Shown: positions 3,916-36,276 of the stretch, piece after piece
How the letters are laid out: the number at the start of each line of letters is the position of its first letter
Position numbering within the stretch: position 1 is the first letter of the stretch
Assembly: GCF_001905465.1 (NCBI RefSeq)
Contig: NZ_LISX01000002.1
Location: 95,763-159,762 of the forward strand
DNA from: Kitasatospora sp. CB01950
GTDB taxonomy: Bacteria > Actinomycetota > Actinomycetes > Streptomycetales > Streptomycetaceae
Reading direction: 5' to 3'
Length of the DNA: 64,000 bases
Position numbers and translations under genes: made by a program
Notes under the pieces: generated by a model
Databases searched by the model: none
What the model saw: only the letters and a program-made list of their open reading frames with translations
What the model was told of the DNA's origin: nothing

Positions 3916-5322
3916 CTGGCTACCCACTCCTCCGCCGTCCGGGACGAGCACCTCGGGCATGTGGTGTTCATCTCCGCCGCCGCCGCGATGGGCGGTTTCC
4001 TGTTCGGCTACGACAGTGCGGTGATCAACGGCGCGGTCACCGGCATCCAGAAGCACTTCGGCGTCGGCAACGGCGAGACCGCGTTCGTGGTGGCGATCGC
4101 GCTGCTCGGCTCGGCGGCCGGCGCCGTGGTGGCCGGCTGGCTGGCCGACCACCTGGGCCGGGTGCGGACCATGCTGATGGCGGCGACGCTGTTCGCGATC
4201 AGCGGCATCGGCTCGATGTTCCCGCCCAGCATCCAGGTGCTGGGCGTGTGGCGCGTGGTCGGCGGCATCGCGATCGGCATCGCCTCGGTGATCGCCCCGA
4301 CGTACATCGCCGAGGTCGCGCCGACCGCCTACCGGGGCCGGCTCGCCTCGTTCCAGCAGATGGCGATCGTGCTCGGCATCACCGTCTCGCAGCTCGCCAA
4401 CTGGGCGCTCAACCAGGCCGCGGGCGGCGAGTCCACCAACCACCTGGGGGGCATCCAGGCCTGGCAGTGGATGCTCGGCGTGGAGGCCGTGCCCGCCCTG
4501 GTGTACGGCCTGATGGCGCTGTCCATCCCCGAGTCGCCGCGCTACCTGATCGCCGACCGGCGCGAGGAGCAGGCCCGCAAGGTGCTGGTCGAGGTCGAGG
4601 GCCCGAACGTCGACCTGGACGCCCGGATCGCGGAGATCCGCCGGGTGCTGGAGACCCGCCGCAAGCCGCGGCTGTCGGACCTGCTCGGCGGGCGGTTCGG
4701 CCTGCTGCCGATCGTCTGGGTCGGCATCGGCGCCTCGGTGTTCCAGCAGTTCGTCGGCATCAACGTGATCTTCTACTACTCGTCGTTCCTGTGGCAGTCG
4801 GTCGGCATCAAGGAGTCCGACTCTCTGCTGCTGTCGCTGTCCACCTCGATCATCAACGTCATCGGCACGGTCATCGCGATGGCGCTGGTCGACCGGATCG
4901 GCCGCAAGCCGCTGGCGCTGGCCGGCTCGGCCGGCATGACGGTCGCGCTGGCGTTGGCCGCCTGGGCGTTCTCCTACCGGCACGGCACCGGCAACACCGC
5001 GACGCTCGACAACACCCACGCCGTGGTGGCACTGGTCGCCGCGCACCTCTTCGTGCTGTGCTTCGCGTTCTCCTGGGGCGTGGTGGTGTGGGTGCTGCTC
5101 GGCGAGATGTTCCCGAACGCGATCCGGGCGCTGGCCCTGTCGGTCGCCGCGTCCGCGCAGTGGATCGCCAACTGGGCGATCACCGTCTCCTTCCCGACCC
5201 TGTCGGACTGGAACCTGTCCGCGACGTACGTGATCTACGCCTGCTTCGCACTGCTGTCGATCCCGTTCGTGGTCTTCTGCATCAAGGAGACCAAGGGCAA
5301 AGCGTTGGAAGAGATGGGCTGA
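3916..5322 (+). CDS. Sugar porter, major facilitator superfamily (GlcP/XylE-like)
   Basis: Twelve-helix sugar/proton symporter of about 468 residues. Signature elements are GGFLFGYDSAVINGA in helix 1, DHLGRVR in the 2-3 loop, PESPRYLI after helix 6, QQFVGINVIFYYSS in helix 7, DRIGRKPL in the second half and a C-terminal PETKG-like KETKGK. The N-terminus resembles the glucose permease GlcP of Streptomyces. No ATG or GTG fits: the best start is CTG at 3916 (LATHSS) with TAGGGAGAGA just upstream. An in-frame ATG/GTG further upstream would add about 30 poorly conserved residues. The gene stands alone, without binding-protein genes. Confidence 0.85.
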   Translation: MATHSSAVRDEHLGHVVFISAAAAMGGFLFGYDSAVINGAVTGIQKHFGVGNGETAFVVAIALLGSAAGAVVAGWLADHLGRVRTMLMAATLFAISGIGSMFPPSIQVLGVWRVVGGIAIGIASVIAPTYIAEVAPTAYRGRLASFQQMAIVLGITVSQLANWALNQAAGGESTNHLGGIQAWQWMLGVEAVPALVYGLMALSIPESPRYLIADRREEQARKVLVEVEGPNVDLDARIAEIRRVLETRRKPRLSDLLGGRFGLLPIVWVGIGASVFQQFVGINVIFYYSSFLWQSVGIKESDSLLLSLSTSIINVIGTVIAMALVDRIGRKPLALAGSAGMTVALALAAWAFSYRHGTGNTATLDNTHAVVALVAAHLFVLCFAFSWGVVVWVLLGEMFPNAIRALALSVAASAQWIANWAITVSFPTLSDWNLSATYVIYACFALLSIPFVVFCIKETKGKALEEMG

Positions 5323-5433
5323 ACACTTCCTGACACACCCTCACCGCGCCGGAGTCGGCGGCGAATTCGGGCCTAGAGTGCCAGACAAACCTTCCTGCCC
5401 GCCGCCGCGCGCGGCCACCCCGACGGAGAGGCC

Positions 5434-6129
5434 ATGGGCGCTGCCCGCCAGAACGTCAGCTTCGCCGGACACTCCGGCCGGACCGTGCACGGCTACCTGG
5501 CGGTGCCGCCCGCCCGGGTCGGCCCCGGAGTCCTGGTGATCCAGGAGTGGTGGGGGCTGACCCGGCACATCGCCGAACTCACCGACCGGCTCGCCGCCGA
5601 GGGCTTCCTCGCCCTCGCGCCCGACCTGTACGGCGGCACCGTCACCCACGACCGGGACGCCGCCGCCCGGATGAAACGCGAACTGCCCGCCGAACGCGCC
5701 GCGGAGGAACTCGCCGCGGCCGTCTCCCACCTGCTGGCGCACCCCGGCTCGGTCGGCGACGCGATCGGCGCGGTCGGCTTCTGCATGGGCGGCGGCCTCG
5801 CCCTGCGCCTCGCCGCCGCCGAGGGCGACCGGGTCGCCGCCGTCGTCCCGTTCTACGGCCTGCCCGGCGACCCCGACTACGACTACCGCGGCCTGACCGC
5901 GCACGTCCTCGGCCACTTCGGCGAACAGGACGCCTCGCTGCCCGCCGCCGCCGTCGACGAGGCCGCCATCCGCATCGGCGAGGCCACCGACCGCCGCCCC
6001 GAGATCCACTTCTACCCGGCCGGCCACGCCTTCATGAACGACGAGAAGACCCCCAGCAGCTACGACCCCCTCCAGGCCGCCATCGCCTGGCGCCGCACCC
6101 TCACCTTCCTCTGGGCGCACCTCGGCTGA
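5434..6129 (+). CDS. Dienelactone hydrolase-family protein
   Basis: 231-residue alpha/beta hydrolase with the dienelactone hydrolase pattern: nucleophile cysteine in GFCMGGG (about residue 115), an Asp in the GEQDASL turn, and the catalytic His in PAGHAFMND. The N-terminal LVIQEWWGL corresponds to the conserved EWWG loop. Classical members open the dienelactone ring in chloroaromatic breakdown, but isolated actinobacterial copies act on unknown esters or lactones. The start ATG has GACGGAGAGG upstream. It is followed after 65 bases by an MFS gene on the same strand. Confidence 0.85.
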   Translation: MGAARQNVSFAGHSGRTVHGYLAVPPARVGPGVLVIQEWWGLTRHIAELTDRLAAEGFLALAPDLYGGTVTHDRDAAARMKRELPAERAAEELAAAVSHLLAHPGSVGDAIGAVGFCMGGGLALRLAAAEGDRVAAVVPFYGLPGDPDYDYRGLTAHVLGHFGEQDASLPAAAVDEAAIRIGEATDRRPEIHFYPAGHAFMNDEKTPSSYDPLQAAIAWRRTLTFLWAHLG

Positions 6130-28836: not shown

Positions 28837-31695
28837 TTACCCGACGGAGGAGTACGCGATGATGCCGCGGCGCATGCCGTCGACGGCCTTGCGGGCGGTG
28901 CGGCGGAGTTCGAGGTTGTCGCCGGCGGCGTCCTGGATCTGGCCGAGGACGTCGATGAGTTGCTTGGTCCAGCGGACGAAGTCGCCGGCGGGCATGTCGG
29001 CGTCGCGGAGGACCGCGTCGAGGTCGTGGCCGAGGGCCCAGCGGTAGGCGGCCCAGGCGAAGCCGAGGTCGGGTTCGCGCTGGCCGACGCCCTCGTCGGT
29101 GGAGATCTTGTGCTGTTCCTCCAGGGCGTCGAGCTTGCCCCAGATGCGGACCATCCGGCCGAGCGCGTCCTTGGCGCCGCCTTCGGGGACGCGGGGGGCG
29201 GTGGCGTCGTCGGACTGCCGGGCCTCGTAGACCAACGCCGAGGCGCAGGCGGCGAGTTCGGCGGCGGCGAGGCCGTCCCAGATGCCTTCGCGGATGCATT
29301 CGGAGGCGAGCAGGTCGAGTTCGCCGTAGAGCCGGGCGAGGCGCTTGCCGTCGGCGGTGACGGTGTCGCCGCTGAGGTAGCCGAGCTCGGTGAGCAGGCC
29401 GCAGACCCGGTCGAAGGTGCGGGCGATGGTGTGGGTGCGGGAGCGCATGCGGCGTTCCAGCAGTTCGGTGTCCCGGTGGAGGCGGTGGTAGCGCTCGGAC
29501 CAGCGGGCGTGGTCCTCGCGTTCGTCGCAGCCGTGGCAGGGGTGCTGGCGCAGGGCGCTGCGGAGCCGGGCGATCTCGGGGTCGTCGGCGGCGGCGGCGC
29601 GGCCCTTGCGGAAGCGCTCGGGTTCGAGGTGGCCGGCCTTGGTGCGCAGGGCGGAGGCGAGGTCGCGGCGGGACTGCGGGCTGCGCGGGTTGAAGGACTT
29701 GGGGATGCGCATCCGGTCCATGGCGGCGACCGGGTACGGGAAGTCGATCATCGCGAGGCGCTTGACCTGGCGTTCGGCGGTGAGCACGACGGGGCGCGGC
29801 CCGTCCTGGTAGTCGGGGTGGCGGGGGCCGGTGCGCCCGTGCCGGCCGCGGACGTCCGGCGGGAGGCCGGGGTCGAGGACGAGCGCGAGGCCGGCGAACT
29901 TGCCGGTGGGGACGTGGATGATGTCGCCGGGCTTGAGCTGCTCGATGGCTTCGACGGCGGCGGCGTGGCGCTGGGTGGAGCCTTCGCGGGCGAGTTCGTT
30001 CTCGCGGTCCTTGAGTTTCCGGCGCAGCGACATGTACTCGTCGAAGTCGCCGAGGTGGCAGGTCATCGACTCGCGGTAGCCGTCGAGGCCTTCTTCGTTG
30101 CGCTGGACCTGGCGGGAGATGCCGACGACCGAGCGGTCGGCCTGGAACTGTGCGAAGGAGGTTTCCAGCAGTTCGCGGGAGCGGTGGCGTCCGAACTGGC
30201 CGACCAGGTTGACGGCCATGTTGTAGGACGGTCGGAAGGACGACTTCAGCGGGTAGGTGCGGGTGCCGGCCAGGCCGGCCAGCGCCTCCGGGTCGAGGCC
30301 GCGCTGCCACAGGACCACGGCGTGGCCCTCGATGTCGATGCCGCGGCGGCCGGCCCGGCCGGTGAGCTGGGTGTATTCGCCGGGGGTGATGTCGGCGTGG
30401 GTCTCGCCGTTCCACTTGACGAGCTTCTCCATGACCACCGAGCGGGCGGGCATGTTGATGCCGAGGGCGAGGGTCTCGGTGGCGAAGACCGCCTTGACCA
30501 GGCCCTGGACGAAGAGTTCCTCGACGACTTCCTTGAACCGGGGCAGCATGCCGGCGTGGTGGGCGGCGATGCCGCGCTCCAGGCCGTCGAGCCACTCGAA
30601 GTAGCCGAGCACGTTGAGGTCCTCGTCGGGGATGTCGCGGCAGCGTTCCTGGACGAACTGGCGGACCTTGAGGCGGTCGGTGTCCCGGTTCAGGCGCAGG
30701 CCGGAGTTGAGGCACTGCTGGACGGCGGCCTCGCAGCCGGCCCGGCTGAAGATGAAGGTGATGGCGGGGAGCAGGCCTTCGGCGTCGAGCCGGTCGATGA
30801 CGTCGACGCGGCTGGGCGTCCAGACCCGGCCGGGGCGGCCGGCGGGCATCGAGCGGCCTCGGCCGCGGGCGAACCGGTCGCGGCCGCGGTCGCTCTCGGA
30901 GCGGGCCAGGCGCACCAGTTCGGGGTTGACGGCCTTGGCGGGGTTCTTCACGCTGCCCTTGGGGCGGCCGTCCCGGTCGGGGCTGGCGAACAGGTCGTAC
31001 ATCCGGTTGCCGGCCATCACGTGCTGCCAGAGCGGGACGGGGCGGTGCTCGGAGACGATCACCTCGGTGCCGCCGCGGACGGTGTCCAGCCAGTCGCCGA
31101 ACTCCTCGGCGTTGGAGACGGTCGCGGAGAGCGACACCAGCGTCACGGACTCGGGGAGGTGGATGATGACCTCCTCCCAGACGGCGCCGCGGAACCGGTC
31201 GGCGAGGTAGTGGACCTCGTCCATCACCACGTAGCCGAGGCCGTCGAGGGCGCTGGAGCCCGCGTACAGCATGTTCCGCAGGACCTCGGTGGTCATCACG
31301 ACGACCGGGGCGTCCCCGTTGACGGAGTTGTCGCCGGTGAGCAGGCCGACCTTGGCCTGGCCGTAGCGCTTGACCAGGTCTCCGTACTTCTGGTTGGACA
31401 GCGCCTTGATGGGCGTGGTGTAGAAGCACTTGCGCCCGGCGGCCAGCGCCAGGTGGACGGCGAACTCGCCGACGATGGTCTTGCCGCTGCCGGTGGGGGC
31501 GGCGACCAGGACGCCCTTGCCGCTCTCCAGCGTCTCGCAGGCGCGGATCTGGAAGTCGTCGAGCGGGAAGTCGTACAACTGCTGGAAGCCGTAGAGGGCC
31601 GTTGCCTGCTCCCTGGCGCGCTCGCGGGAGGCCGCGTAGCGCTCGGCGGGGCTGAGCTGCTCTTCGGGCGTGGGGTTGCCGTGCACTGGCGTCAC
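28837..31695 (-). CDS. helY: HelY-like superfamily II (Ski2/Mtr4-type) RNA helicase
   Basis: 952-residue DExH helicase. Walker A APTGSGKTIVGEFAVHLA (about residues 65-82), Walker B VMDEVHYLADRFRG, motif III SLSATVSNAEEFGDW, motif VI QLTGRAGRRGIDIEG, and a C-terminal DSHCT domain (YLSGDTVTADGKRLARLYGE onward) as in Mtr4/Ski2. Actinobacterial HelY proteins are thought to assist RNA turnover or remodelling. The start is GTG at 31695 after GAAGAAAAG. The divergent gene 303 bases away heads the permuted tRNA-like locus, so this RNA helicase is a possible but unproven partner. Confidence 0.9.
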   Translation of the reverse strand: MTPVHGNPTPEEQLSPAERYAASRERAREQATALYGFQQLYDFPLDDFQIRACETLESGKGVLVAAPTGSGKTIVGEFAVHLALAAGRKCFYTTPIKALSNQKYGDLVKRYGQAKVGLLTGDNSVNGDAPVVVMTTEVLRNMLYAGSSALDGLGYVVMDEVHYLADRFRGAVWEEVIIHLPESVTLVSLSATVSNAEEFGDWLDTVRGGTEVIVSEHRPVPLWQHVMAGNRMYDLFASPDRDGRPKGSVKNPAKAVNPELVRLARSESDRGRDRFARGRGRSMPAGRPGRVWTPSRVDVIDRLDAEGLLPAITFIFSRAGCEAAVQQCLNSGLRLNRDTDRLKVRQFVQERCRDIPDEDLNVLGYFEWLDGLERGIAAHHAGMLPRFKEVVEELFVQGLVKAVFATETLALGINMPARSVVMEKLVKWNGETHADITPGEYTQLTGRAGRRGIDIEGHAVVLWQRGLDPEALAGLAGTRTYPLKSSFRPSYNMAVNLVGQFGRHRSRELLETSFAQFQADRSVVGISRQVQRNEEGLDGYRESMTCHLGDFDEYMSLRRKLKDRENELAREGSTQRHAAAVEAIEQLKPGDIIHVPTGKFAGLALVLDPGLPPDVRGRHGRTGPRHPDYQDGPRPVVLTAERQVKRLAMIDFPYPVAAMDRMRIPKSFNPRSPQSRRDLASALRTKAGHLEPERFRKGRAAAADDPEIARLRSALRQHPCHGCDEREDHARWSERYHRLHRDTELLERRMRSRTHTIARTFDRVCGLLTELGYLSGDTVTADGKRLARLYGELDLLASECIREGIWDGLAAAELAACASALVYEARQSDDATAPRVPEGGAKDALGRMVRIWGKLDALEEQHKISTDEGVGQREPDLGFAWAAYRWALGHDLDAVLRDADMPAGDFVRWTKQLIDVLGQIQDAAGDNLELRRTARKAVDGMRRGIIAYSSVG

Positions 31696-31998
31696 CTTTT
31701 CTTCCCGTGGGTGTGGCTGGACGGGGTCGCAGACGGCGACGCCTGCGGCTGCGGGGCCGTGGCCCGGGCGGGCGACGGGGCGCAGCGGGTGCGTGGGGTG
31801 TGGTGATCGAGCATCTCAGCCTGAGATTACCCGTCTGGAGTGACATCAACAGCCGAGTTTTCCGGCAGCTGAAAAGGGTTCCGGACGCTGGTGCGAAGCG
31901 TGATCGGACGGCTGCCGGGGGTGATCGAAAAGGGGGCGGCGGCGAGCGTCCGGAAAACCGGGTGCGGATCGAACGGGCGTTCCGTTAGCGTCCTCGCC
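31696..31998. promoter_or_regulatory. Divergent promoter region with palindrome
   Basis: 303-base gap between the helicase gene and the gene heading the RNA locus. It is A/T-richer than average in 31800-31870. A 7+7 palindrome ATCTCAG-C-CTGAGAT sits at 31813-31827 and is a candidate operator. TTAGCGT at 31985-31991 is a possible -10 only about 8 bases before the GTG at 31999, which would give a leaderless message. Confidence 0.4.
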
Positions 31999-32730
31999 GT
32001 GGCCAAGTTGAACCAGATCATCGCCGTGGAAAAAGGCGTCAAGTCGAAGTCGTTCCAGGAGCTGACGCAGGCTCACCAGGACCTGCAGAAGCCCGCGCTG
32101 CTGGCCGGCATCTCCCGGTCGTACCAGCCGAAGGACGAGGAGGGCGAGCAGTTGCCGCCCGAGTCGACCCGGGTCCAGGTCAAGGCGGAGGACGTGATGC
32201 GGGCCACCGCCGCCACGCTCACCCGGCTGTTCGACGTCACCGCGACGAAGGACTGGGCCAACACCGAGGCCCGGGCGGACGTGGTGGTGGACGGGCGGAC
32301 GCTGGTGGCCGGTGTGCCCGTGACGTACCTGCTGTTCCTGGAGAAGCAGTTGACCGACCTGCGGACGTTCGTCCGCAAGCTGCCGGTGCTGGACGCCGCC
32401 GAGTTCTGGTCGCACGACCCGTCCTCGGACGCGTGGAAGACCGAGGCGGTGCGCACCATCCGCACCAAGAAGGTGCCGCGCAACCACGTGAAGGCGGAGG
32501 CGACGGAGAAGCACCCGGCGCAGGTCGAGGTGTACTACGAGGACGTCGCGATCGGGTACTGGACGACCGTGAAGTTCTCCGGCGCGCTGCCGGCGCGGCG
32601 GGTGAACGAGCTGTTGGAGCGGGTGGAGAAGCTCCAGCAGGCGGTGCAGTTCGCCCGTGAGGAGGCGAACGCCGCGGAGGTCACCGACCGCCGGGTCGGC
32701 GACGCCGTGTTCGGCTACCTGTTCGGGTAG
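31999..32730 (+). CDS. Conserved actinobacterial protein of unknown function heading the tRNA-like RNA locus
   Basis: 243 residues; I recall close relatives annotated only as a DUF. No signal or membrane segment. Features: a basic N-terminus AKLNQIIAVEKGVKSKSFQE, the conserved KPALLAGISRSYQPKDEEGE, LTRLFDVTATKDWAN, VPVTYLLFLEKQLTDLRTFV and a lysine/histidine-rich RTKKVPRNHVKAEATEKHPA that could touch nucleic acid, then a C-terminal coiled helix RVNELLERVEKLQQAV. GTG at 31999 fits the conserved start; ribosome site is weak, so it may be leaderless. Its stop is directly followed by hairpins and two permuted tRNA-like elements, so a role in making or using that RNA is inferred. Confidence 0.8.
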   Translation: MAKLNQIIAVEKGVKSKSFQELTQAHQDLQKPALLAGISRSYQPKDEEGEQLPPESTRVQVKAEDVMRATAATLTRLFDVTATKDWANTEARADVVVDGRTLVAGVPVTYLLFLEKQLTDLRTFVRKLPVLDAAEFWSHDPSSDAWKTEAVRTIRTKKVPRNHVKAEATEKHPAQVEVYYEDVAIGYWTTVKFSGALPARRVNELLERVEKLQQAVQFAREEANAAEVTDRRVGDAVFGYLFG

Positions 32731-32800
32731 CCCCAAGAGCCCCCCGGGTGAGACCGGGGGTGGCGCGAAAAGCGCAAGCTGACACTGAAGTTGAAGCTGA

Positions 32801-32889
32801 CTTCGGGGTACACGGTGGAGGTTCGAATCCTCCCCCCGGCACCATCACGCGCCGGGGTGGCCCAAATGGCAGAGGCAGCCCCGTGAAAC
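32801..32889 (+). ncRNA. Permuted tRNA-like element A (3' half before 5' half)
   Basis: 3' half first: possible anticodon-stem strand GGGGT (32805-32809), T-stem GGAGG (32817-32821), canonical T-loop TTCGAAT (32822-32828), CCTCC (32829-32833), acceptor strand CCCCGGC (32834-32840) and an encoded ACCA (32841-32844). After a 6-base linker comes the 5' half: acceptor strand GCCGGGG (32851-32857), TG, D-arm GCC / CAAATGGCAGA / GGC (32860-32876), A, then GCCCC (32878-32882) that pairs with GGGGT. Acceptor pairing is 7 of 7. The loop after GCCCC reads GTGAAAC, giving GAA at anticodon position if intact. The 7-base variable region is atypical. Confidence 0.65.
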
Positions 32890-32953
32890 TCAGACTCTCG
32901 CTCACGTCTCAGCATTCGCCGCCGAGCGCCGGATCGACCGGTCGAGGGCCGGT

Positions 32954-33032
32954 GACGTCGGATGCGGGTTCGACTCCCGCCTGCGCCTCTCCGTGGCGCG
33001 GTAGCTTCAATGGCAAAGCACGACGTCGTGAG
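32954..33032 (+). ncRNA. Permuted tRNA-like element B (3' half before 5' half)
   Basis: 3' half: GACGTCG (32954-32960), T-stem GCGGG (32964-32968), canonical T-loop TTCGACT (32969-32975), CCCGC (32976-32980), acceptor strand CTGCGCC (32981-32987). A 7-base linker leads to the 5' half: acceptor GGCGCGG (32995-33001), TA, D-arm GCTT / CAATGGCA / AAGC (33004-33019), A, then CGACGTC (33021-33027) that pairs with GACGTCG over 7 bases. Acceptor pairing is six Watson-Crick plus one G-U. CCA is not encoded. The anticodon stem looks extended, without a normal 7-base loop, so decoding function is doubtful. Confidence 0.62.
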
Positions 33033-33085
33033 AGTGACCCTCGGCCTTAAACGTGCCGACGCAGAGCAATTGGGTGGCACCTCGA

Positions 33086-33117
33086 GGACCCGGGAGCTGG
33101 ATACCGCTCCCGGGTCC
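33086..33117 (+). terminator. 12-bp hairpin terminator closing the tRNA-like array
   Basis: Perfect stem GGACCCGGGAGC / GCTCCCGGGTCC (33086-33097, 33106-33117) with loop TGGATACC. It ends the RNA locus about 200 bases before the next gene. Confidence 0.85.
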
Positions 33118-33313
33118 GTCACGTTCCGGGGCGGGCGTTCGGGCGAAGTGTTCACATCCTGATGTGCAAATGTCTTCAAGTGGTCACCGGTCCGGCACTT
33201 CTCGATCGGAAACCGTCCAGCTTCGAACGATTTCGCTCAACACTCGGCCGAACTGCGATCCGGTTCCTACAGTCGTGCCGACCGACCCGGCCGCAACAGC
33301 AGGAGGACAGGCG

Positions 33314-33688
33314 ATGGCGAATCTCGAAACCTCGCTCAAGGAAGCCATGACCATCGAAGGCGCCATCGGCGTGGCCCTGGTGGACTACGGCAGCGGAATG
33401 GCCCTGGGGACGCTGGGCGACGGAGGCGAGATCGACCTGAATGTCGCCGCGGCCGCCAACACCGACCTGGTCCGTGCCAAGATGCGGGCGATGGAGATGC
33501 TCAACCTCCACGACGACGGCATCGAGGACATCCTGGTCACCCTGACCGGCCAGTACCACCTGATCCGCCCGCTCACCACGACGGGCGGGCGCGGCCTGTT
33601 CCTCTACCTCGCGCTCAACCGCAGCCGGTCCAACCTGGCGATGGCCCGGCACCAGTTGAAGCGGATCGAGGCGTCCCTGGAGGTCTGA
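33314..33688 (+). CDS. Roadblock/LC7-like small protein
   Basis: 124 residues with the single roadblock-like domain pattern: helix NLETSLKEAMTIEGAIGV, strand ALVDYGSGMALG, later EDILVTLTGQYHLIRPL and a C-terminal helix NRSRSNLAMARHQLKRIEAS. About 70% identical by eye to the product at 42880, so it is a dispersed copy of that cluster. In streptomycete conservons, roadblock proteins act with small Ras-like GTPases and sensor kinases, but none is adjacent here. AGGAGG precedes ATG at ideal spacing, suggesting strong translation; TACAGT near 33265 could be a -10 box. Confidence 0.8.
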   Translation: MANLETSLKEAMTIEGAIGVALVDYGSGMALGTLGDGGEIDLNVAAAANTDLVRAKMRAMEMLNLHDDGIEDILVTLTGQYHLIRPLTTTGGRGLFLYLALNRSRSNLAMARHQLKRIEASLEV

Positions 33689-33696
33689 GCGCGGGG

Positions 33697-33716
33697 CGGC
33701 GGCCTGCGGGCCGCCG
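33697..33716 (+). terminator. Short GC hairpin between roadblock and ArsR genes
   Basis: CGGCGGCC / GGCCGCCG, 8 bp with a 4-base loop, nine bases after the roadblock stop and 19 bases before the ArsR start. It may attenuate read-through rather than end transcription fully. Confidence 0.45.
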
Positions 33717-33734
33717 GAAACAAGGGGAGGAAGC

Positions 33735-34064
33735 ATGCCCGTACCGCTGTACCAGGCCAAGGCCGAGTTCTTCCGGATGCTCGGCCATCCGGTCCGGATC
33801 CGAGTGCTCGAACTGCTCCAGGCCGGGCCGACGCCCGTCCGCGACCTGCTGCCCGAGCTCGACGTCGAACCGTCCAGCCTCTCCCAGCAGTTGGCGATCC
33901 TGCGCCGCTCCGGCCTGGTCACCTCCACCCGCGAGGGCTCCACGGTGGTCTACGCCCTGGCCGGCGCCGACGTCGCCGAACTGCTGCGCACCGCCCGCCG
34001 GATACTCACCGAGCTGCTCGCCGACCAGGGCATGCTGCTGGAGGAGCTCCGCGCCGCCCGCTGA
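33735..34064 (+). CDS. ArsR/SmtB-family winged-helix regulator
   Basis: 109 residues: FFRMLGHPVRIRVLELLQAG start, PTPVRDLLPELDVEPSSLSQ QLAILRRSGLV recognition helix and wing, and TSTREGSTVVYALAG. The cysteine metal-binding ELCVCDL motif is absent, so it probably responds to something other than arsenic or senses through other residues. GGGGAGG precedes ATG. Follows the roadblock gene by 46 bases; a 10-bp terminator lies after it. Confidence 0.85.
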   Translation: MPVPLYQAKAEFFRMLGHPVRIRVLELLQAGPTPVRDLLPELDVEPSSLSQQLAILRRSGLVTSTREGSTVVYALAGADVAELLRTARRILTELLADQGMLLEELRAAR

Positions 34065-34072
34065 CACCCCGA

Positions 34073-34097
34073 CGGGCCACCCGCACCGGGTGGCCCG
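34073..34097. terminator. Hairpin terminator after the ArsR gene
   Basis: Perfect 10-bp stem CGGGCCACCC / GGGTGGCCCG with a 5-base loop, nine bases after the stop. Confidence 0.8.
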
Positions 34098-34188
34098 CCC
34101 ATGGGCACCGGACGAACATTCGTGCTGTGTGACATTTCACAGGTCACACTTCTAGCCGAACCGACCCTCCTGCCGCCACCATCGGCAG

Positions 34189-36276
34189 GTGACCCACACC
34201 GACACCTTTCTCGCGCTGAGCGCCGCCACCGGCCGCTTCGGCTACGGCTCCCCACGCGCGGTCACCCTCGCCGCCGACGCGAGCCGCGCCCTGTTCCTGC
34301 GCTCCACCGGCCCGACCGACCCGGTCGAGCGGCTGTGGAGCTACGACCTGACGACCCATCAGGAGCGCCTGGTCGCCGACCCGTCGGCGCTCGCGCCCGA
34401 GCGCACCGGCGCGGTCGCCGACCTGCCGCCGGTGGAGCGCCACCTGCGCGAGCGGGTCCGGATCTGGGCGCCCGGCATCGGCTGGTTCGCCGCCACCCCC
34501 GACCTCGCCACCGCCGTCTTCACCCTCGACGGCCGCCTGTTCCGGTGCGACACCGCAACCGGCGAGTGCGCGGAACTCCCCGTCGCGGGGCCCGCGTGGG
34601 ACCCGCGACCGAACCCGGACGGCACCCGCGTCGCGTACGTCGCCGACGACGCGCTGCACCTGGTGCCGGGCGGCCGGCTCAGCCCGGCGGACGGGGCCCG
34701 CTGGGGCGTCGCGGAGTTCGCGGCGGCGGAGGAGCTGGGCCGCTCCCGGGGCCACTGGTGGTCGCCCGACGGCGCCGCCGTGCTGGCCGCCCGGGTGGAC
34801 GAATCCGCGCTTCCCATGCGGCACTTGGGCGACCTCGCGCACCCGGAGCGGGCGGCCGACTCGTTCGCCTACCCGCAGGCGGGCGGCCCGAACGCGGACG
34901 TCCAGCTCTGGGTGCTGCGGCTGGACGGCGAGCAGGTCCGACTGCGCTGGGACGACGTCGACTTCCCGTACCTGCTGGCCGCGGAGTGGGACGGCGACGC
35001 GGAGCTCCTGCTGACCGTCGCGGACCGCCTCCAGCAGCGGGTGCTGCTGCTGAGCGCCGACCCGGCGACCGGCGTGACGCGTGAACTCTCGCGCACCGAG
35101 GACGAGTTCTGGGTGGACCCGCTGCCGGGCACCCCGCTGCGGCTGTCCGACGGACGGGTGCTGACCTCGGCGGACACCCCGGCGGCACGCGGGCTGGCGC
35201 TGGACGGCAAGCCGCTGACCGACGAGAGCCTGCAGGTCCGGCGCGTCCTCGGCCCGTGGCAGGGCGGCCTGCTGGTGGAGGCCGGCGACGGCGACCCGGC
35301 CGACCAGCAGGTCTTCCTGCTCGACCCGGACGGCGGCACCCCGCAGCGGCTCACCGGGGACCCGGGCGTGCACACCGTGGCCGCGCACGGCGAGGGCGTG
35401 CTGCTGCTCACCTCGGCCGACCTCGACGGCATCCGCCGCGAGTGGCGCCACACCGGCACCGGCAGCCACGTCCCGTTCGCCGACCTGTCCGCCGAACTCC
35501 CCTACCGGCCGCAGCCGTTGCTGCAGCGCGTCACCGAGCACGGCCTGCCGACGGCGGTGCTGTACCCGCGCGGCCACGTGGCGGGCCGGCGGCTGCCGGT
35601 GCTGCTGGACGTGTACGGCGGCCCGGGCTTCCAGGCGGTGGCGAACGAGCCGCGCCGCTGGCAGCTGAAGCAGTGGTGGGCCGACCAGGGCTTCGCCGTG
35701 GTGACCGTCGACAACCGCGGCACGCCGTTCGTGTCGCCGGAGTTCACCCGGGCGATCTTCCGCCGCTTCTCGCAGGTGGCGATCGACGACCAGGTCGCGG
35801 CCCTGCAGGCGCTGGCCGCGGTGCACCCGGACCTGGACCTGTCCCGGGTGGGCGCGCGCGGCTGGTCGTACGGCGGGTACTTCGCGGCACTGGCGGTGCT
35901 GCGCCGCCCGGACGTGTTCCACGCGGCGAGCGCGGGCGCACCGCCGACCGACTTCCGGCTGTACGACACGGCGTACACCGAGCGTTACCTGGGTCTGCCG
36001 CAGGACAACCCGGAGGGCTACGAGGCGGACTGCCTGCTGGCCGACGCGCCGGCGCTGAGCCGTCCGCTGCTGCTGATCCACGGCCTGGCGGACGACAACG
36101 TGCACCCGTCGCACACGATGCTGCTGTCGCAGGCGCTGACCCGGGCGGGCCGTCCGCATGCGGTGCTTCCGCTGCCCGGGGTGAGCCACATGCTGCCGGA
36201 CGGCGAGCTGGAGCGCGTGGTGGCGGTGGAACTGGAGTTCCTGCGTCGGGAGTTGGGCGCAACCCCTTCCACATGA
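34189..36276 (+). CDS. S9 prolyl oligopeptidase-family (DPP IV-like) serine peptidase
   Basis: 695 residues. An N-terminal beta-propeller-like region (about 1-430; repeated segments such as WSYDLTTHQERLVADPS and RLDGEQVRLRWDDVDFPYL) precedes the catalytic alpha/beta-hydrolase domain. LLDVYGGPGFQAVANEPRRW starts that domain. The nucleophile Ser is in GARGWSYGGYFAAL, Asp in HGLADDNVHPSHT and His in PGVSHMLPDG, a full triad in family order. Expected to remove N-terminal dipeptides or cut short peptides in the cytoplasm; no signal peptide. GTG at 34189 has only GGCAG upstream. Sits before a secreted M6 protease, so both may serve peptide use. Confidence 0.87.
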   Translation: MTHTDTFLALSAATGRFGYGSPRAVTLAADASRALFLRSTGPTDPVERLWSYDLTTHQERLVADPSALAPERTGAVADLPPVERHLRERVRIWAPGIGWFAATPDLATAVFTLDGRLFRCDTATGECAELPVAGPAWDPRPNPDGTRVAYVADDALHLVPGGRLSPADGARWGVAEFAAAEELGRSRGHWWSPDGAAVLAARVDESALPMRHLGDLAHPERAADSFAYPQAGGPNADVQLWVLRLDGEQVRLRWDDVDFPYLLAAEWDGDAELLLTVADRLQQRVLLLSADPATGVTRELSRTEDEFWVDPLPGTPLRLSDGRVLTSADTPAARGLALDGKPLTDESLQVRRVLGPWQGGLLVEAGDGDPADQQVFLLDPDGGTPQRLTGDPGVHTVAAHGEGVLLLTSADLDGIRREWRHTGTGSHVPFADLSAELPYRPQPLLQRVTEHGLPTAVLYPRGHVAGRRLPVLLDVYGGPGFQAVANEPRRWQLKQWWADQGFAVVTVDNRGTPFVSPEFTRAIFRRFSQVAIDDQVAALQALAAVHPDLDLSRVGARGWSYGGYFAALAVLRRPDVFHAASAGAPPTDFRLYDTAYTERYLGLPQDNPEGYEADCLLADAPALSRPLLLIHGLADDNVHPSHTMLLSQALTRAGRPHAVLPLPGVSHMLPDGELERVVAVELEFLRRELGATPST

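Follow-up and report, generated by a model that had tools for sequence, protein, structure and literature searches.

What kind of RNA follows the DUF7873 gene of Kitasatospora sp. CB01950, where two stretches resembling tRNAs with swapped halves stand one behind the other? The window considered here is a stretch of 64,000 nucleotides from this organism, and an earlier reading of its letters alone (the sequence-only reading) had picked out two tandem permuted tRNA-like elements beside one protein gene and had taken the whole for a dedicated RNA-protein system. Both elements are real, but their description as a tandem pair has to be corrected: they are the two heads (head A and head B) of one larger folded RNA of about 380 nt, which occupies window positions 32741 to 33117 on the forward strand and adjoins the DUF7873 gene. 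The features of the locus are as follows.

31999..32730, forward strand: DUF7873 gene (PF25283), 243 aa, GTG start, the predicted protein partner (Pfam, 400.6 bits)
32741..32760, forward strand: 5' hairpin with loop GUGAGA (sequence; the loop is UGAGC in several phage versions)
32763..32775, forward strand: small GCGC hairpin preceding arm A (helix 1 of the A3 alignment, 92.6% of cells paired, zero double changes)
32776..32913, forward strand: arm A, trunk helix P1 carrying head A (helix 2 of A3)
32817..32840, forward strand: head A, 3' half, T-arm and 3' acceptor strand CCCCGGC (T-stem and acceptor covariation, 32 sequences)
32841..32850, forward strand: linker of head A, ACCATCACGC (length and content vary among relatives)
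32851..32876, forward strand: head A, 5' half, acceptor strand GCCGGGG, U8 and D-arm GCC...GGC (D-stem 97.9% paired)
32918..33078, forward strand: arm B, trunk helix P2 carrying head B (helices 7-11 of A3)
32964..32987, forward strand: head B, 3' half, T-arm and 3' acceptor strand CUGCGCC (covariation, 34 sequences)
32995..33019, forward strand: head B, 5' half, acceptor strand GGCGCGG, U8 and D-arm (alignment and U8 count)
33086..33117, forward strand: 3' hairpin of 12 bp with loop UGGAUACC (helix 15 of A3, double changes in 5/11 pairs)

A direct check of the sequence found the two permuted elements where they had been placed, each with all seven acceptor pairs. The T-arm of head A (GGAGG-TTCGAAT-CCTCC, 32817-32833) runs into the acceptor strand CCCCGGC (32834-32840), which pairs 7/7 with GCCGGGG (32851-32857), and ACCA stands immediately after the 3' acceptor strand. 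The T-arm of head B (GCGGG-TTCGACT-CCCGC, 32964-32980) runs into CTGCGCC (32981-32987), which pairs 7/7 with GGCGCGG (32995-33001), one pair being G-U, and its D-arm reads GCTT-CAATGGCA-AAGC. The two T-loops, the D-arms, the ACCA and the 12-bp end hairpin that had been described are all present.

Covariation of the acceptor strands had been set beforehand as a check on these elements, and compensatory double changes were found in 7/7 acceptor pairs of both. For head A, aligned over 32 sequences from Streptomycetaceae, Nonomuraea and phages (7 long-linker sequences of 39 omitted), 97.3% of acceptor cells and 100% of T-stem cells are paired; for head B, aligned over 34 of the 39 (four long-linker sequences and L076 omitted), acceptor and T-stem cells are 100% paired. 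The observed values exceeded those of all 500 shuffles and of the slid controls, although these rows were selected for carrying elements and count kin repeatedly, so that the figures describe a pattern, not a probability. The further claim that anticodon-stem strands match across the halves survives only in part: the strands of head A (GGGGT/GCCCC) are just 47.5% paired across relatives, and those of head B reach 69.1% across relatives but 91.1% within Streptomycetaceae.

Chance is a poor source of such elements. With a detector demanding a T-arm, at least 6/7 acceptor pairs and a D-arm, dinucleotide-shuffled sequences gave at least one element in 11/2180 cases and two in 0/2180, and the real upstream windows of the same loci gave at least one in 4/320 and two in 1/320. 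The same detector found two elements in 57 and one in 24 of 81 Streptomycetaceae loci (the window plus the best 80 of at least 531). When the D-arm demand was dropped, head B was recognized in 81/81 of these loci and both heads in 66/81. Head A is missing from the remaining 15/81, several of which have a short hairpin at the expected site, and two heads are thus not always needed. The search did not demand U8, and yet it is present in 147/147 elements from Streptomycetaceae and 139/142 viral elements, a conservation that argues for a true tRNA-like fold.

Both heads are borne on trunk helices. The strands of P1, AAGCUGA.ACUGA (32776-32788) and CUCAG..GUCUCAGC (up to 32913), are 97.7% paired with zero double changes in the A3 alignment; P1 is near-invariant, and its pairing is unproven by covariation. 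The strands of P2 are GCCGCC/GGUGGC and CGCCGG/CCG(A/G)CG, together with an internal loop (AUCGACC / CUUAAACGUG), and its inner helices do covary, with double changes in 8/9 pairs of helix 10 and 5/7 pairs of helix 11. This internal loop (AUCGAC opposite CUUAAACGUG) is found again, slightly varied, in Streptomycetaceae, in Nonomuraea and in phages of Arthrobacter, Gordonia and Rhodococcus. At the 5' end, a hairpin with a (T)GAG loop was picked up in 43/81 Streptomycetaceae and 36/91 viral loci by a loose, uncontrolled search, which is suggestive only. At the 3' end, the hairpin loop is often of the GGAUA/GGCUA type or a near variant among relatives; a permissive and uncontrolled rule found a hairpin with GGAT, GGAC, GGCT or GGTA in its loop in 100/108 loci, and in only 22/100 of these does the 9-nt stretch that follows contain 4 or 5 T (no shuffle control). 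Given the frequent loop type and the scarcity of T behind it, this hairpin is unlikely to be a mere terminator. Over the whole RNA, an alignment of 24 Streptomycetaceae sequences yields 88 consensus pairs, 37 of them with compensatory changes, and 97.8% of cells are paired under the consensus for the same stretch versus about 40 to 45% when it is slid.

Searches with established RNA profiles assign this structure to no class. Rfam over 31500-34500 (E up to 10) returned no family at its cut-off, and the sub-threshold matches comprised YrlA (35.7 bits on head B, 32942-33047, and 21.0 on head A, with a cut-off of 69), tRNA and tRNA-Sec at about 21 bits, and one unrelated match on the opposite strand. 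Neither the tmRNA profile nor those of GOLLD and ROOL matched in the same interval at E up to 10, and ARAGORN likewise called no tmRNA. Permuted two-piece tmRNA resembles the present RNA in having a tRNA-like part, swapped halves and an intervening sequence, but here there are two tRNA-like parts. GOLLD and ROOL are, according to the available text of PMC12286853, large structured phage RNAs of unknown function that often lie near tRNA islands; that setting and the structured phage RNA are shared, whereas the present RNA is smaller and has a linked protein gene and tRNA-like heads. Ms1 (scr3559) is also a structured RNA of Streptomyces but occupies another locus, sco3558-sco3559 (PMC9130861, as far as its available text goes).

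The adjoining gene belongs to DUF7873, its product matching PF25283 over residues 1-242 far above the gathering score of 27 bits. Its closest relative among the matches listed is from Kitasatospora cheerisanensis (98%), and 7292 of 7999 scored proteins are DUF7873 homologues. An AlphaFold2 model built from 76 sequences has a mean pLDDT of 92.8 and a pTM of 0.76, and a structural search with it returned no informative fold match. The protein is not net basic (34 K+R versus 35 D+E). A literature search found no paper naming DUF7873, and among the matches listed none concerned this RNA and none joined permuted tRNA, bacteriophage and noncoding RNA. As a separate observation, the BFVD entry A0A7M1RW91, from uncultured phage cr118_1, resembles the model (probability 1.00, TM 0.44/0.58, E 0.039) and is a possible distant relative of DUF7873.

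How closely gene and RNA keep company was measured with R1, a covariance model of arm B built from 27 sequences. Among 150 sampled Streptomycetaceae genomes, 92 have DUF7873 and 92 have a full-length R1 match of at least 56 bits, and the two sets are identical (92 both, 58 neither, 0 with one alone), with the strong cut chosen post hoc in the gap between 56.8 and 46.8 bits. At E 0.001, some R1 match occurs in 137/150 genomes; the weak ones inspected are tandem tRNAs and Ro60-linked modules. All 93/93 strong matches lie no more than 282 nt from a DUF7873 gene, and 93 of the 94 gene places have a strong RNA, the unpaired one being a divergent second copy in genome G514, where a 33.6-bit full-length match starts 47 nt downstream. 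The expectation that the halves would be found beside nearly all homologues examined is borne out by this figure, as it was by head B in the best-match loci, and the proposal of a dedicated RNA-protein system would fit the exact co-occurrence. Across a phylum-wide sample, the gene is present in 7/396 genomes, and these seven are also the ones with a strong RNA among 392. The surroundings are far less constant: flanks grouped by tblastx fall into 42 clusters upstream of 80 loci and 33 downstream of 77 (best 80 of at least 531). Because the flanks vary while gene and RNA stay together, the pair is a two-part cassette that changes place. In one of the 92 genomes (L207, G411:C62:58725-59052), DUF7873 is present as a match of only 64 residues beside an RNA that still scores 67.2 bits, possibly a decaying gene with a surviving RNA.

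The cassette extends into phages. With tblastn, DUF7873 was found in 73/50,697 phage records (Vibrio 29, Gordonia 12, Rhizobium 12, Klebsiella 7, Serratia 6, Arthrobacter 3, Pseudanabaena 2, Rhodococcus 1 and Microcoleus 1), and heads stand beside it in actinophages, cyanophages and Klebsiella phages at 28 to 57% protein identity. All 13/13 phage loci examined have heads, one of them recognized by eye. Over 28 loci (these 13, 1 from Nonomuraea and 14 from IMG/VR), the detector found at least one head in 27 and two or more in 18. At the 28th, of a Microcoleus phage (L099), the RNA lies about 1.8 kb further down, beyond a HEARO RNA and a CDS; R1 matches it there at full length with 36.3 bits (5292-5446), and the permuted acceptors CCCTCGG/CCGAGGG and CTAGCGC/GCGCTGG can be seen by eye. 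The HEARO RNA, which separates RNA and gene together with the CDS, scores 129 bits, and at this locus (L099:5040-5560) the linker of head B (CTAGCGC/GCGCTGG) seems to nest further small tRNA-like elements.

When R1 was applied to 21 viral loci outside its training set and without near copies of that set, 12 scored 57 to 101 bits (L094, L096, L097, L104, L105, L107, L108 and L110-L114, including the near-copy pairs L104/L105 and L107/L113), compared with 32 bits for tandem tRNAs. The model is weak or silent on cyanophages (36 to 42 bits), L106 (27), Rhizobium phages (28 or none), Vibrio phages (none) and Klebsiella phages (22.5 or none); in the cyanophage, Rhizobium, Vibrio and Klebsiella loci, it is mainly the heads that are recognized, with a single head per locus for Rhizobium and Vibrio. 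A wider IMG/VR scan covered the best 80 of 341 loci, with some contigs repeated, of which 78 had enough sequence. Under the strict rule, 41 of the 78 have two heads, 25 have one and 12 have none. Among these 12, R1 scores 93 to 112 bits in L127, L133, L162 and L176; L148 and L184 have long linkers; L191 and L192 give partial 34-bit R1 matches; and L169 looks similar by eye. In the sequence covered, no RNA was seen in L134, L135 and L156 (3/78 viral loci). In L176 the gene has the RNA on its upstream side, and in L162 the RNA is downstream but on the opposite strand (convergent); in such a placement it is not the 3' UTR of the gene.

Heads that covary, a gene and an RNA that stay linked in our samples, and a distribution that reaches into phages are the observations from which any interpretation has to start. 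We consider it somewhat probable that this conserved two-headed RNA, tied to DUF7873 in sampled Streptomycetaceae and many phages, forms a predicted ribonucleoprotein with the DUF7873 protein whose heads dock on enzymes that grip the tRNA elbow. In such a particle, the RNA would be transcribed as one molecule and the DUF7873 protein would bind its trunk; each head would offer a complete tRNA elbow (T-loop, D-loop and acceptor-T stack) lacking an anticodon loop, and the linker would cap the acceptor end, leaving a head that neither decodes nor is charged. By analogy, the docking partner may be PNPase, as in YrlA, or an enzyme of the TruB/DusA type: the available text of PMC8394870 describes YrlA as holding Rsr (Ro60) by its basal stem and binding PNPase by its head, and TruB and DusA as modifying it. 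The docked particle would tether or occupy such enzymes. In phages, where the gene is often near tRNA genes, the cassette would tune the turnover of RNA or attacks aimed at tRNA in the course of infection, and Streptomycetaceae would retain it for their own RNA metabolism.

We are evenly divided on a broader proposition, in which tmRNA-SmpB and Y RNA-Ro60 are joined by a third kind of ribonucleoprotein that mimics tRNA, found in bacteria as well as phages. It would be a cassette that travels, and its two elbows, permanently capped and devoid of an anticodon, would engage two tRNA-handling enzymes at the same time, either bridging or occupying them; it would have arisen in large phages, and over half of Streptomycetaceae would have domesticated it. 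We rate the system as new because the protein, the two-armed RNA and their linkage match no class that we found, while the topology of the head is itself that of YrlA. The RNA family reaches from Streptomyces as far as the phages of cyanobacteria and Klebsiella, and yet its representative in the window reaches no Rfam cut-off. Should the particle exist, mimicry of the tRNA elbow is not confined to the tmRNA and Ro60 systems, and large phages possess a dedicated tool that touches on tRNA biology. The proposal also gives a testable function to a Pfam family of thousands of proteins (DUF7873) and makes it testable why some RNAs retain tRNA heads that are incapable of translation.

A different purpose for the same heads has to be weighed, namely that phages make them as uncleavable, unchargeable tRNA mimics, held by DUF7873, that soak up the tRNA-attacking nucleases or toxins of the host, and that bacteria adopted the cassette later. 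Published accounts, as far as their available text goes, describe defences that attack tRNA as well as phage tRNAs that escape such attack, and the parts that such enzymes cut, the anticodon loop and the free tail, are absent from the heads. The gene also lies in or beside tRNA arrays in several phages (within them in Arthrobacter, Gordonia Phendrix and Rhodococcus phages), and tRNA genes are present in 18/35 IMG/VR loci scanned. However, the other 17/35 have no tRNA or tmRNA gene, the sole call in L106 overlaps head A of the RNA itself, and a cassette found in 92/150 sampled Streptomycetaceae genomes would be odd for a pure anti-host decoy. This purpose seems to us unlikely, if worth bearing in mind. 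Separately, tmRNA genes were seen near the DUF7873 cassette on phage and viral contigs at L095:572-1100, L163:1476-1873 and L172:6032-6434.

The linkers bear on whether the heads are capped at all. It could be that RNase P together with RNase Z or exonucleases removes them; what is left, much like permuted tmRNA, would be a nicked RNA of two or three pieces that has CCA tails and whose 5' ends are mature and tRNA-like. As this would predict, linkers begin with N-CCA in 31/66 head A elements of Streptomycetaceae and 54/142 viral elements, but just 1/66 head B linkers of Streptomycetaceae begin with CCA, so tails are not conserved. Linker length in Streptomycetaceae ranges from 6 to 47 nt, which means that no reading frame is kept through the RNA stretch; linkers of just 4 nt cap the stem in the viral loci L104 and L114, and those of some other loci measure 62 to 88 nt. 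A complete gene for a 186-aa HNH endonuclease lies inside the head A linker of one viral locus (L127:3857-4417), with the rest of the RNA following it, and this marks the tip of the acceptor stem as a permissive and perhaps removable site. Long and gene-bearing linkers may thus leave room for processing, whereas the 4-nt linkers and the patchy CCA argue for capped heads rather than mature tails, and we regard removal of the linkers as improbable on balance.

A closer known relative is the bacterial Y RNA, YrlA (RF02553), and with it the sequence-only reading has to be set right where it knew of no standard bacterial class: YrlA has the same head topology, a permuted tRNA-like module in the order T-arm, acceptor-like stem and D-arm set on a stem, with a canonical T-loop and D-arm, and both RNAs are linked to a protein gene. 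Our RNA might accordingly be a Y RNA serving Ro60 (Rsr) in trans, since a Ro60-type gene does lie about 350 kb away in the Kitasatospora sp. CB01950 genome and YrlA-like modules scoring 33.6 to 42.2 bits, below the Rfam cut-off, stand near the Ro60 genes of four relatives (L202-L205). The two genes co-occur somewhat above chance (both in 62 of the 150 genomes, DUF7873 only in 30, Ro60 only in 27 and neither in 31; Fisher p 0.017, kinship ignored). Nevertheless, a Ro60 match is absent in 30/92 RNA-bearing genomes and present in 27/58 genomes that lack the RNA, both heads stay well under the 69-bit gathering score, and the neighbor is DUF7873 here and Ro60/Rsr for YrlA. The build differs as well, with two heads on two arms and about 380 nt in our RNA as opposed to one head, a long stem formed from the two ends of the RNA and 90 to 150 nt in YrlA. 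Service to Ro60 is therefore very improbable; the gene counts and the Ro60-linked modules rather indicate that similar heads serve two carriers within one family and that our RNA is independent of Ro60. The Rfam YrlA model may miss actinobacterial Y RNAs. In front of the Ro60/TROVE gene of the Kitasatospora sp. CB01950 genome (L001, G000:C12 475840-479022) stand three imperfect GTGCGCAGGC..GGGG.TACTTC repeats and a sequence resembling a T-arm, which are candidate Ro60-linked Y RNAs uncalled by Rfam.

The likeness to permuted tRNA genes holds for topology and stops there. In algae and the archaeon T. pendens, such genes have swapped halves with complementary acceptors (PMC3978253, in its available text), and the circularly permuted genes of red and green algae and of T. 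pendens share with our heads the 3' half before the 5' half, complementary acceptor strands and a short acceptor linker. Joining the outer ends should then give an anticodon arm, but no anticodon arm is seen in either head: the strands at this position continue as long, conserved helices in the trunk of a larger RNA, and ARAGORN finds zero tRNA in the window; splicing of these elements into decoding tRNAs is hardly credible. Equally remote is the view of them as tandem tRNA gene remnants or as a 3' UTR acting in cis on the DUF7873 mRNA, which is refuted in the main: real tandem tRNAs do match the YrlA and R1 models, but neighboring tRNAs would not pair acceptor with acceptor in all 81 best-match loci with deep covariation, and a 3' UTR would not lie as the RNA does in L176 and L162. 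The Rfam YrlA model scores 33 to 38 bits on tandem tRNAs (L002, L003, L005 and L006), a false-positive trap. In Klebsiella phage Centimanus, an annotated 'tRNA-Stop(tta)' overlaps the RNA (L120:3013-3096) and is likely a misannotation.
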